NCBI GenBank assembly: GCA_007695115.1
Contig: REEK01000138.1
Location: 1-46,515, forward strand
Direction of reading: 5' to 3'
Origin: Sphaerobacteraceae bacterium
GTDB lineage: Bacteria; Chloroflexota; Chloroflexia; Thermomicrobiales; Thermomicrobiaceae
DNA length: 46,515 nucleotides
Shown: in pieces, positions 19,526 to 26,766 of the stretch
Position numbering within the stretch: the first letter of the stretch is position 1
Layout: each line of letters begins with the position of its first letter
Position numbers and translations under genes: made by a program
Notes under the pieces: generated by a model
The model's database searches: none
Seen by the model: only the letters and a program-made list of their open reading frames with translations
Told to the model about the DNA's origin: nothing

Positions 19526-19558
19526 CGCCTGAATTGACAGTAAGTCATGGAGGGTTTC

Positions 19559-21493
19559 GTGTCCAGCGCGCCGGAGACTTCGACCAGATACGACAAACTA
19601 CTCGACCGGGCATGTGAATTCATTATCGCCAACGGCAACGCCGTCCATGAGGATCTGCTCATTCGGCATGTCTTCGGTTCCAGTGGTCGCCCGGACCTCT
19701 GGCGATCGCTCCTCCGCCAGATCCTGGGCGAAGCGCCAGAGCTGGGCTTACGTGGTGACGGATACTGGACCGTCAGCCGATCGCGCGCTGATTCAGACGA
19801 CACTCCAGGCCTGATCGACGGCTCATACACCGTCATAGACGTCGAGACCACCGGGCTGAAGCCGCTGAACCATCGGGTGATCGAGTTCGGTGCTGTTCGC
19901 TACGACGGCGGTAAGCAGACCGGCACGCTGAGTCTGCTGATTCAGCCGGAGCGGAAGGTTCCGCAGTACGTCCGGAAACTCACCGGCATCGATGATCAAC
20001 TGCTTACTGACGCGCCTCTCTTCGGAGATGTGGCTCAGGAGATCCTGGAATTCATCGAAGATACGATGCTGATCGGCTACAACGTTGGCTTCGATGTCTC
20101 GTTTCTGAACGCCGAGCTCGACCGAATCGGGCACCAGACATTGCTGAATCAGACGATCGACCTTCTGCCCGTGGCGGGAGCCTTGATGCCGGCGACGCGC
20201 TCTCGAGGTTTGACCACACTGGCAAAGGAGCTGAACGTTGCCTCTACCGGAGCTCATCGAGCTCTGGACGACGCCTTGACCACCGCCGGAGTGCTGAAAG
20301 GTCTGATCCCCTGGATTCGAGCGGCCGGCATCACCTCGCTGCATCAACTGGATGGGTTTCGCTCAGCACGACGTGAAGAGCGCGATAGCAGCGGGCCATT
20401 CGCGCGTGGACGTTCGTTGCTCGATCCTGAGCACGTCTCATCAGCCCCGTCGACTCCCGGCGTGTACATCATGCGGGGCCAGAAAAATCGTGTCCTGTAC
20501 ATTGGCAAGGCGAAGGATCTGCGGGCGCGGATCCGCTCCTATTACTCTCAACCACTGGGCTACACCCGGAAGATGGACGGGTTGCTGCAATCGATAAAGG
20601 CGATCGAGACGGTCGAGACTGGCTCCGAGCTGGCTGCCTTGCTGCTTGAGCAGCAACTGATCGCACGCTATCGCCCGCAGTTCAATCGTCAGATGCGTAC
20701 CTCTGACAACTACCCCTACATCCGGATCGATATGAGCAATCCGTGGCCCCGTGTAAACATGGTCAAGGAAGCGAAAGATGATTCCGCCCGCTACTACGGG
20801 CCGTATCGAAGCTCTCGAGCGGCACGGGCGACCGTTGATGCGCTGAACGACATCTTTCCGCTCCGCAGTTGCTCACGAAGTTTCAAGAATTCCCGCAGTT
20901 TCGGCTCGCCCTGCACCGAACTCGATTTCGGGCGTTGTCTGGGTCCGTGTGTTGGTCAGGCCGATCGGGATGAGTATTTCAGCTACCTGCGAGAGATCAT
21001 CGCGTTCCTCGAGGGCGATGTTGAGCCAGTCATGGAGCGTTTGCACGCTCAACTGGAGCGAACTGCGGAGCGACTCGACTTCGAAAAGGCGACCCGCGTT
21101 CGGAACCGGATCGACCGGGTGACCGAGCTCTCTCAATCTCAGGAAGTGCTGAGCCTGGCCGTGAATCAGGGGGATCTGGTGGTCGTTCTGCCGGCGGTCG
21201 ATCCGGATTGCCGGGAGATCATGCTGACCCGTTTCGGGCGCACCTGGTCCCGGCGAATCTTCGATCAGGGTGAACCTTCAGAGGAGATTGCAGCAGACCT
21301 CGAGCGATCGTGGGAACGAGCCCGGGAGCTTGCTTCGATGACGATTCTGCAGCGCGAGCTCGATTCAGTGCAGATCCTCACCCGCTGGGTTCGAAAGAAC
21401 TGGGATCATCCATCGATCATGCCGGTTCCGGATGAACCGGTGGACTGGTCTCAGGTGGTGGAACATGCCAGAACGGTGCCGCTCATCGAGTAA
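19559..21493 (+). CDS. DnaQ-like exonuclease fused to UvrC N-terminal (Cho-like) endonuclease
   Basis: A 644-residue fusion. The N-terminal 70 or so residues are a helical, possibly winged-helix segment. A DEDDh exonuclease follows (VIDVETTGL, IGYNVGFDVSFLNAEL, HRALDDALT; about 80-250). Then comes a GIY-YIG nuclease as in UvrC (TPGVYIMRGQ, VLYIGKAKDLRARIRSYY; about 285-370), a cysteine-bearing segment (CTELDFGRCLGPCVG) and a UvrB-binding UVR-like helix pair (LDFEKATRVRNRIDRV). The RNase H-like and helix-hairpin-helix C-terminal half of full UvrC is absent, so only the 3' incision activity is expected, as in Cho. Similar fusions are known in actinobacteria. GGAGG lies 5 bases before the GTG at 19559; an ATG at 19547 overlaps that site. 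Likely SOS-controlled. Confidence 0.88.
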   Translation: MSSAPETSTRYDKLLDRACEFIIANGNAVHEDLLIRHVFGSSGRPDLWRSLLRQILGEAPELGLRGDGYWTVSRSRADSDDTPGLIDGSYTVIDVETTGLKPLNHRVIEFGAVRYDGGKQTGTLSLLIQPERKVPQYVRKLTGIDDQLLTDAPLFGDVAQEILEFIEDTMLIGYNVGFDVSFLNAELDRIGHQTLLNQTIDLLPVAGALMPATRSRGLTTLAKELNVASTGAHRALDDALTTAGVLKGLIPWIRAAGITSLHQLDGFRSARREERDSSGPFARGRSLLDPEHVSSAPSTPGVYIMRGQKNRVLYIGKAKDLRARIRSYYSQPLGYTRKMDGLLQSIKAIETVETGSELAALLLEQQLIARYRPQFNRQMRTSDNYPYIRIDMSNPWPRVNMVKEAKDDSARYYGPYRSSRAARATVDALNDIFPLRSCSRSFKNSRSFGSPCTELDFGRCLGPCVGQADRDEYFSYLREIIAFLEGDVEPVMERLHAQLERTAERLDFEKATRVRNRIDRVTELSQSQEVLSLAVNQGDLVVVLPAVDPDCREIMLTRFGRTWSRRIFDQGEPSEEIAADLERSWERARELASMTILQRELDSVQILTRWVRKNWDHPSIMPVPDEPVDWSQVVEHARTVPLIE

Positions 21494-21594
21494 AATCCAG
21501 TCGGCTGGAAGTGTCCGCCTCCGGAGCTGGTAGTGCAGGCATTGCCCTGCTCTGTGTGGCAATGTCTGTTGCAGAACACGAGAGTTGGACAGCT

Positions 21595-22992
21595 ATGGTG
21601 AGGTTTGGACACGACGGGTGGCTCGGCGAGCTCGCCTACGATCTGACATATGAGTCGATTGTCAACGTTGCGGTCGCTGCCGGGGTTACCATGACCCGCG
21701 ATAGCCGTAGCCATGGACCTCTTGTTATCGCCCACGATCGACGATCTCTGGGCGACGAGTTCTCCCGGGCGATTAGCCGGGAGCTGGCGTCGCTCGGTGT
21801 CGAGGTTATTCGACTCACCGAGCCGTTTCCATCTCCGGTGGTCTCCTCAGCAATCACGCAAACCGACGCTGTTGGCGGAATCATGGTCAGTGGCGGACAG
21901 GCCCCGGTCACCATGAATGGACTGCTGCTGCGAGGCCCTGATGGCGGGGCGCTACCCCGATGGATGCTCGATCAGATCTCTGAAGTCTCGCAATCAGGAT
22001 TGCCGGTCTCCAGGGTTGGCCCGACTGCCCGGGTGCGCACCTGGGACCCACTCGAGCGCTACCTCGATATTCTGGAAGCCCGATTCCCGCTGTCGGCAAT
22101 TCGGAACGCCGGGATTACCGTGGCGGTCGATTGTCTGTGGGGGACCGGTGCCGGAATTTTGCCGATGGTCGTCGATGGTGATGGAAGTCGGACGATCGAG
22201 TTCAGAACCGCGCACAACCCACTGTTTCCGGAGCTGTCATCGCTTACCCCAGATGTTTCGAACCTCGAACGGTTGCAGAAAATCGTGAGAACGGGCGATG
22301 CCGCGATCGGGATCGGGTTGTCAGCCGACGGATGCAACGCGGCGATCCTCGATGAACGAGGCATCGTGCTGCAGCCCGGTATGGTATCGGCGCTCACGGC
22401 CTGGCACCGATTCCACTATCGCAAGCAGGCCGGGACCATTGCTCGTTCCATCGGCGCTTCGACCAGCATCGATGCAATCACCCGGCGGACCGGTGTGATG
22501 CTGCACGAGTTGCCGTATGGCTACACCGCGGTGTGTGAGACGCTACGCGAGACTTCACCAGAGCTAGCCTGGGATGAGTCGGGCGGTCTGATTATGCCGA
22601 GCATCGGTATGGAACGCGACGGCATCGCCCAGAGCCTCTGTATCCTGTCACTGATGATCGATACAGAGGCGGAGCTCTCCGATCTTGTGGCTGAAGTTCA
22701 CCAGGTGACAGGCCCGCGTGTGCTTCTCCGGTCCCGGATCGATCTGGCGGTCGACCAGTCAGACCTTGCCCGTGTCAGAATTGGGCGGGAGTCATGGCCG
22801 GACCATGTTGCCGGGCTTCCGGTTCTGGAGCAGTACCTGACTGATGGAGTATCGCTGGAACTCGGAGAGCGAGCCTGGTTGTTGATACGCTACGATGAGA
22901 TCGAGGGGGCGTTGTACATCATCGCCGAGGCAGAATCGGACGAACGGGCGAGTGCGATCCTGGAAGCCGGTCGATCCATGATGTTGCTCTAG
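21595..22992 (+). CDS. Phosphohexomutase-family protein lacking catalytic loops (probable pseudoenzyme)
   Basis: A 465-residue protein of the phosphoglucomutase/phosphomannomutase superfamily. The start FGHDGWLGE matches the family FGTDGWRG. The key loops are changed. The phosphoserine loop TASHNP is replaced by a VSGGQAP-containing stretch before MNGLLLRGPDGG. The metal loop DGDADR is replaced by SADGCN (in IGIGLSADGCNAAILDERG). The C-terminal phosphate loop with SGTEP is replaced by RYDEIEG before ALYIIAEAES. Only the sugar-binding loop is intact (WDESGGL). Catalysis is therefore unlikely, while sugar-phosphate binding may persist. The ATG at 21595 follows GAGAG; the frame is open upstream. 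It lies between dnaQ-uvrC and udg on the same strand, likely in one operon. An inverted repeat, CATTGCC ... GGCAATG, lies upstream at 21540-21564. Confidence 0.85.
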   Translation: MVRFGHDGWLGELAYDLTYESIVNVAVAAGVTMTRDSRSHGPLVIAHDRRSLGDEFSRAISRELASLGVEVIRLTEPFPSPVVSSAITQTDAVGGIMVSGGQAPVTMNGLLLRGPDGGALPRWMLDQISEVSQSGLPVSRVGPTARVRTWDPLERYLDILEARFPLSAIRNAGITVAVDCLWGTGAGILPMVVDGDGSRTIEFRTAHNPLFPELSSLTPDVSNLERLQKIVRTGDAAIGIGLSADGCNAAILDERGIVLQPGMVSALTAWHRFHYRKQAGTIARSIGASTSIDAITRRTGVMLHELPYGYTAVCETLRETSPELAWDESGGLIMPSIGMERDGIAQSLCILSLMIDTEAELSDLVAEVHQVTGPRVLLRSRIDLAVDQSDLARVRIGRESWPDHVAGLPVLEQYLTDGVSLELGERAWLLIRYDEIEGALYIIAEAESDERASAILEAGRSMMLL

Positions 22993-23045: not shown

Positions 23046-23654
23046 GTGGCTGAGTTGACGATGGCACAGGTAGAGGAACAGATCCGCGGTTGCACGATGT
23101 GTGACCTCAGTCGAACACGCACAAACGCCGTTCCGGGTGAGGGGAATCGATCTGCAAACGTCATGTTCATCGGGGAAGCGCCGGGATTCCACGAAGATCG
23201 AAATGGTGAACCGTTCGTTGGCGCGGCTGGAAAGTTTCTCAATGAGCTACTCGAATCGATCGATCTCGATCGATCAACCGTTTACATCACCAACGTCGTC
23301 AAGTGCCGTCCCCCGGGGAACCGTGATCCCCTGCCAGATGAACTCGCTGCCTGCGCGCACTACATCGATCGACAGATCGAGCTTATTGACCCCAAAGTCG
23401 TAGTAACGCTGGGTCGTTTCTCGATGTCGCGCTGGTTTCCGAAAGAGCGGATTTCGCGGATACACGGCACTCCAAAGCGATTTGGCAACGTCACGATCGT
23501 CCCGATGTACCATCCGGCGGCCGCCCTGCATCAGGGCTCGTTGCGGGCGACCATCGAAGCCGATATGAAGAAGCTGCCTCAGATCCTGGCGCAGATGGAA
23601 GCCGAGGAGAACGAGCAGGAAGACCCCGACGCTGAGCAGATGAAGCTGTTCTGA
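23046..23654 (+). CDS. udg: Family 4 uracil-DNA glycosylase (iron-sulfur)
   Basis: This enzyme removes uracil from DNA, starting base-excision repair. The 202-residue protein has the family 4 active-site motif GEAPGFHEDRNGEPFVG and the second motif HPAAAL. It has four cysteines for a 4Fe-4S cluster: the CTMC pair near the N-terminus, VKCRPPGNRDP and AACAHYID. The GTG start at 23046 follows GGGG at modest spacing. It lies about 50 bases after the phosphohexomutase-like gene on the same strand. Length and motifs match thermophile-type and actinobacterial UdgA-like enzymes. Confidence 0.93.
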   Translation: MAELTMAQVEEQIRGCTMCDLSRTRTNAVPGEGNRSANVMFIGEAPGFHEDRNGEPFVGAAGKFLNELLESIDLDRSTVYITNVVKCRPPGNRDPLPDELAACAHYIDRQIELIDPKVVVTLGRFSMSRWFPKERISRIHGTPKRFGNVTIVPMYHPAAALHQGSLRATIEADMKKLPQILAQMEAEENEQEDPDAEQMKLF

Positions 23655-25992: not shown

Positions 25993-26325
25993 CTATTGAT
26001 CTGCGTGGACTTCAACGTTTTCGGTCGCAGTACTCGTTTCACGTGAGGCCGAGAAGCATGGTCCGCAATAGACCGGGCGTCCCTGGCGCGGCACGAATGG
26101 AACCGTCGTGTGGGCGCCGCAATCAGCGCAGATCACCTGATGCTGGACCGGAGGCTTGACCCCCATCTCTACTTTCCGGGCTGCCCGGCAATCAGGGCAG
26201 CGTACAGGGATATTCTGAAGTCCCTTTTCCCGGAAGAATGCTTGCTCGCCCGCCGTCCAGATGAAATCACCTGAACAATCCCGGCATTTCAGTGTCCGAT
26301 CGTTGTAGCTGGACCTGTCAACCAT
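25993..26325 (-). CDS. Zinc-ribbon protein of unknown function
   Basis: A 110-residue soluble protein with two zinc-ribbon modules. The first has CRDC near residue 14 paired with CPDC near residue 46, the layout of the 'probable zinc-ribbon' family. The second is C-x2-C-x15-C-x2-C (CADCGAHTTVPFVP ... YCGPC), a CxxC module often seen in Chloroflexota and related bacteria. The C-terminal tail is short and polar. The ATG at 26325 follows a G-rich ribosome site; the open frame extends a further 10 codons. Nucleic-acid or protein binding is plausible, but no specific role can be given. Its stop lies 13 bases from that of ftsK. Confidence 0.75.
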   Translation of the reverse strand: MVDRSSYNDRTLKCRDCSGDFIWTAGEQAFFREKGLQNIPVRCPDCRAARKVEMGVKPPVQHQVICADCGAHTTVPFVPRQGRPVYCGPCFSASRETSTATENVEVHADQ

Positions 26326-26766
26326 ATAGTCCCGCCCCCTTCCGCAGGTACGCATACCCCGGTTCGCGTGTCACCGACGCCGACAATCCCCTCGGACTGC
26401 ATTGCTCGGTGACCCGATGCAGTTCGGTCCTGCCGCTCGCCGTTCTCCTGGTAGCCTGAAGATTTCGGTTACCGTACCACAGTGCATTTATCCTTGCAAA
26501 CAGGGTATACGGATGAATTGCCCTGTACGGTAATCATTGTTATCACTCGATACTGTCTGTCATGTTGCCCGCTGCGACTGGGCGAGAAACGACTGGCGTC
26601 AAGAACCAGTCAGGACGCAGCTTTTGCGTTCGTCGGAGCCGCTGAGACTCCCACGGAGCAACACAGATTTGACACCTGCCCGGCTGGGGTGTTTCACAAG
26701 AGGATGGGGGCAAACGCTTTGCTATACTTTCAGTGTGGTTGGCAGTATACATGATCCGGGGGCGGA
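26326..26766. other. Structured intergenic region between the zinc-ribbon gene and recR
   Basis: About 440 bases without a convincing gene. TTACCGTAC (26469-26477) and GTACGGTAA (26525-26533) form a perfect 9-bp inverted repeat enclosing CAGGG (26501-26505) and CCCTG (26521-26525). GACTGG (26591-26596) can pair with CCAGTC (26606-26611). A possible minus-strand promoter for the zinc-ribbon gene is TTGCAA (26494-26499) and TACGGT (26471-26476), 17 bp apart, with a weak -10. A short open frame at 26482-26754 lacks a ribosome site and family-like sequence. An undetected small RNA is possible but not shown. Confidence 0.4.
26720..26728 (+). promoter_or_regulatory. recR promoter (extended -10)
   Basis: TGCTATACT is an extended -10 element about 38 bases before the recR ATG. 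I see no good -35 at 16-18 bp, which the TG-N extension may offset. Confidence 0.5.

Follow-up and report, generated by a model that had tools for sequence, protein, structure and literature searches.

A gene with the landmarks of a phosphohexomutase lies between two DNA-repair genes in the genome of a Sphaerobacteraceae bacterium, and its active-site loops depart from the canonical ones. Is its product an enzyme in decay, an enzyme whose catalytic residues have moved, or a protein kept for another job? We addressed this with loop alignments, structure prediction, measures of selection and gene order across related genomes, starting from the window, by which we mean the whole stretch of DNA analysed (46 515 nt, contig REEK01000138.1 of assembly GCA_007695115.1).

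Gene and predicted fold

The gene occupies positions 21595–22992 on the forward strand and encodes 465 amino acids, numbered here from the M at 21595 (M = 1). Its open frame is 21511–22992 and the longer ORF begins with GTG at 21511; the ATG at 21595 is the likely start, since orthologues of the same genus have TTG at the same residue. The protein matches Pfam phosphohexomutase domains I, II and III (PF02878, PF02879 and PF02880) over cut-off, with E-values of 2e-19, 6e-10 and 2e-12, placing it among these fold families. The HMM matches stop short of domain IV (PF00408), but the structural model extends over the entire protein and can be aligned with complete mutases. AlphaFold2, given an alignment of 28 homologues, modelled the full-length protein with a mean pLDDT of 91.3 and a pTM of 0.91. 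The best PDB sequence match was 1TUO (E 6e-37), with 9DU5 and 1WQA also among the nearest, and Foldseek matched the model to these three active mutases over their length, with a TM of about 0.85. The gene product is accordingly modelled as an intact phosphohexomutase fold. Scores fell below cut-off for the NCBIfam GlmM and PMM/PGM equivalogs, TIGR03990 (188 versus 439 bits) and TIGR01455 (125 versus 447 bits); the canonical orthologues likewise fall under these cut-offs.

Active-site loops

The loops were compared among the window protein, two orthologues of the same genus and 25 class homologues with canonical loops. Ser101, His102, Asn103, Asp243, Gly244, Asp245, Asp247, Arg248, Ser434, Gly435 and Thr436 are present in 25/25 of the class homologues; only Asp245 is kept in the window protein and in its orthologues of 95% and 44% identity. 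The phosphoserine loop (21886–21906, forward strand) reads VSGGQAP in place of ITASHNP, with the catalytic Ser101 replaced by Gly in the window protein and both aligned orthologues, and with His102 replaced by Gln and Asn103 by Ala in the window protein. The metal loop (22321–22338, forward strand) reads SADGCN for canonical DGDxDR, so that two of three Asp are lost and D245 alone remains; SADATI, also non-canonical, is the other form seen in the genus. The phosphate loop (22888–22908, forward strand) reads RYDEIEG for RxSGTEP, having lost SGT and P, kept Arg432 and gained an acidic residue (S434D). In loop 1 of the window protein T6 has become H and R10 has become L. The initial annotation had described a phosphoserine loop without Ser, a metal loop SADGCN and a lost SGTEP, and all three are borne out against the 25 canonical homologues. 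It had also stated that the ESGG sugar loop persists, which holds for the window protein (DESGG for canonical EESGG; 22573–22587, forward strand) and fails for the 44%-identical orthologue (DQDGG). The alignment thus gives good support to reading the window protein as a pseudoenzyme in which catalysis would be lost. The closest solved sequences, the Thermus putative phosphomannomutase 1TUO and the archaeal PMM/PGM structures 1WQA and 9DU5, have the same fold and, unlike the window protein, canonical Ser and metal loops.

Selection within the genus

Four genomes of the genus share the loop losses: the window genome (G000), G002, G001 and, as end fragments, G003, where two contig ends each carry a piece of the gene; these pieces read VTGGAHP and RHDEIDE and hence lack the Ser and SGTEP. 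Their presence in four genomes argues against sequencing error. Replacement states, among them S101G, D243S, G244A, S434D and P438G, are common across 44% identity.

The gene might nonetheless be in slow decay, a mutase redundant with the PMM/PGM paralogue, weakly constrained and on its way to being lost, as has happened cleanly in genus g6. Mutases are able to cover for each other (PMC6797236), and constraint on the pseudoenzyme is relaxed, since both its dN/dS and its divergence exceed those of its neighbours: dN/dS between G000 and G002 is 0.124 (bootstrap 0.07–0.20) as against 0.03–0.06 for four neighbouring genes, and identity between G000 and G001 is 44%, as against 88% for the uracil-DNA glycosylase (UDG) and 85% for RecR. 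The pseudoenzyme evolves 2–4 times faster than its neighbours. Even the upper bound on dN/dS is low, however, which points to a protein under selection and not to simple decay. The G000–G002 differences at codon positions 1/2/3 number 16/8/63. The ORFs are full length and free of internal stops in three genomes of the genus across 44% identity, with the G003 end fragments open; replacement states are common to divergent orthologues, and the fold is predicted intact with high confidence. These points count against decay, and we regard it as an unlikely explanation. The initial annotation had proposed orthologues as a way to see whether the altered loops were conserved or variable, and the answer is a set of losses common to the genus.

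A second explanation is a ligand-binding sensor whose altered cleft still binds a sugar phosphate or other small molecule; the initial annotation had suggested a sensor or a scaffold. Asp245, Arg284, Glu305 and Arg432 are retained in the alignment, and vertebrate PGM5 is inactive with its substrate binding intact (PMC7761743). Against this, G000 and G001 share 44% of residues in the four active-site loops and 45% elsewhere in the protein, whereas canonical pairs show 92% versus 50%. The extra constraint on the active site is therefore gone, and this speaks against a ligand site having been kept. As the loops drift at the average rate of the protein, the sugar loop varies within the genus and the phosphate loop now carries an added acidic residue, the claim of retained ligand binding is unsupported, and we consider a sensor of this kind distinctly improbable.

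The best conserved 15-residue window between two divergent pseudoenzymes lies elsewhere, in the block LRGPDGGALPRWMLD (21928–21972, forward strand), where 14/15 residues are identical (shuffle P 0.0185; two species are compared, as the G003 fragment stops short of the block). This block may mark a newly acquired functional surface.

Gene order and ancestry

Upstream of the gene is a DEDD exonuclease–UvrC (GIY-YIG) protein (19547–21493, forward strand) and downstream a family-4 UDG (23046–23654, forward strand), both ancestral neighbours. Genera g2, g3 and g4 have the order LigA, DEDD-UvrC, mutase, UDG4, FtsK, RecR, and their mutase is canonical; in genus g5, too, the mutase is between UvrC-like and UDG genes. 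The mutase gene is absent from the five g6 genomes checked, where the UvrC-like and UDG genes stand directly side by side. This conserved gene order makes the window gene positionally orthologous to an ordinary alpha-phosphohexomutase.

The initial annotation had called the place between a UvrC-like gene and a UDG gene unexpected; it is instead ancestral. The setting offers no clue to a new role, because each other genus of the family that retains the gene has an active-looking mutase at this place, and g6 no longer carries it. We therefore think it very improbable that the protein is a partner of the adjoining repair proteins: their genes are on the same strand, about 100 and 53 bases away, but in other genera an active-looking enzyme is encoded in the same order, and both repair genes persist in g6 without the mutase gene.

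Several minor features of the neighbourhood were seen. In the 19547–21493 product a DEDD exonuclease is fused to the GIY-YIG and UVR portion at the N-terminus of UvrC, and at 69–73% identity within the genus the protein evolves faster than UDG or RecR. A small treble-clef zinc-finger protein is encoded on the reverse strand at 25993–26355, between FtsK and RecR; a zinc-finger gene occupies the FtsK–RecR place in G001, G003 and G004 of the window genus, and tblastn finds none in the other family genera examined. In G004 a contig end falls just past UDG.

Remaining sugar-phosphate enzymes

One other phosphohexomutase was found in the window genome by PF02878/PF02880 match, a PMM/PGM with canonical loops (L001). 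GlmS matches occur in 21/21 genomes of the family, and MurA scores over cut-off in 20/21, the window genus included. Since GlmS and MurA persist across the family, a need for sugar-phosphate mutase activity presumably remains and would be filled by L001 or an undetected enzyme. We also considered that the mutase had been shed because the peptidoglycan pathway was gone, and rejected this on the presence of GlmS and MurA in the family, including the window genus.

GlmM binds and inhibits the c-di-AMP cyclase CdaA (PMC8573169), and each genome of the family has one DAC-domain gene. A similar cyclase regulator is nonetheless hard to credit in the window protein: genomes lacking the pseudoenzyme gene have the DAC gene all the same, and in a pairwise alignment of the window protein with B. 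subtilis GlmM the CdaA-contacting Asp151 faces a gap and Glu154 a Pro. That the protein is still an active mutase whose catalytic residues have moved, which the initial annotation had raised as the case against its own reading, is scarcely conceivable, since Ser99, two residues upstream of the catalytic position, aligns with a canonical Thr and is Thr in G001, and two metal Asp, loop-1 Arg10 and the phosphate-loop SGT are lost as well.

A second lineage in the class

A second pseudo-phosphohexomutase (pseudo-PGM), of about 375 aa, was found in families f11 and f13, which are probably Chloroflexales (L117, 5871–6983; L118, 5207–6346; L119, 3906–5012; and L120–L133). At 17/17 loci examined in these families it directly follows an active-looking PMM/PGM gene and precedes a CofD/YvcK-like one; the latter scores 135 bits against the NCBIfam YvcK cut-off of 196, and so is below it. 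In G090 (f13) the PMM/PGM and YvcK-like genes are present and the pseudo-PGM is absent. Of 158 class genomes searched with a profile, 51 exceeded 310 bits, every one of them in f11 or f13; no other genome scored more than 197 bits. The catalytic Ser is lost in 16 aligned members (SARNRP, SACNRP, SAGNRE and similar). Like the window protein, the f11/f13 proteins belong to the same mutase clade, lack the Ser and keep only the middle metal Asp; unlike it, they are about 375 aa long, lack domain IV and are encoded between PMM/PGM and a YvcK-like gene. In G095 a single ORF of 822 aa (L124, 706–3144) joins the pseudo-PGM to the YvcK-like protein; it may be a true fusion or an assembly frameshift, and was left out of the analysis. 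A contig scan with two narrow patterns gave no clear further pseudoenzyme outside the genus, with two of six distant hits inspected.

The two lineages join in the full tree, with support of 79/94 on a branch that is not starred and is flagged as long branches meeting, and this grouping keeps a common origin in play. A tree keeping the window genus with the other mutases of its family (f1) is not rejected (AU p 0.39). When f11 rows are left out, a starred branch (95/99) sets the window genus on the side of its own family, and when the window genus is left out, the f11 clade remains outside f1. The split trees and the conserved gene order together favour, though they do not prove, independent origins.

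Possible role

We propose the following course of events. The ancestor of the whole family would already have had an ordinary alpha-phosphohexomutase between its UvrC-like and UDG genes; in this genus the active-site loops would have been lost before the sampled members diverged, and the folded, non-catalytic protein then kept by selection. It would now bind another protein, most likely in sugar-phosphate or UDP-sugar metabolism, possibly the active PMM/PGM, for example, as a regulatory or structural subunit. We give about even chances to this reading of an ancestral mutase turned protein-binding, non-catalytic regulator of sugar-phosphate/UDP-sugar metabolism. The metabolic assignment is a guess from the ancestry of the protein, from the f11/f13 gene order and from two links: in B. 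subtilis a genetic link joins phosphoglucomutase to glmR (PMC6797236), and the GlmR protein binds GlmS and stimulates it (PMC7525490). The f11/f13 arrangement serves the window genus by analogy only, because the YvcK gene of the window genome is on another contig, unlinked to the pseudoenzyme gene.

Separate, similar changes in distant families would suggest a regulatory rather than a chemical job. A broader reading, which we hold tentatively and think somewhat doubtful, is that within the class one mutase clade was twice independently made into a non-catalytic regulator, once at the original locus and once flanked by an active mutase gene and a YvcK/GlmR-like gene. If true, it would mean an unrecognised layer of control over sugar-phosphate or UDP-sugar flux. 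A maintained bacterial pseudomutase, together with a serine-less family that many genomes encode between an active mutase and a GlmR-like gene, offers a tractable place to seek protein-level control of cell-envelope sugar supply.

Known relatives

Pseudoenzymes of this superfamily are already known from vertebrate PGM5, and the case here is a bacterial, maintained one; the full-text literature searched, whose coverage is incomplete with most subscription journals outside it, held no bacterial pseudo-phosphohexomutase. PGM5 (aciculin; PDB 6Y8X, 6Y8Y and 6Y8Z; PMC7761743) is likewise mutase-inactive and maintained. It largely keeps its Ser and metal loops, and its substrate binding, whereas the window protein has lost the Ser, metal and phosphate loops. 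The loop identities within the genus argue against PGM5-like retention of substrate binding. By way of 1TUO, we take cd05800 (PGM_like2) as a possible subfamily of the window gene's active ancestor. The cd05800 protein Slr1334, a glucose-1,6-bisphosphate synthase, is active (PMC9426568), unlike the window protein. The genome search also led to two cyanobacterial loci, both of which turned out to encode GlmM.
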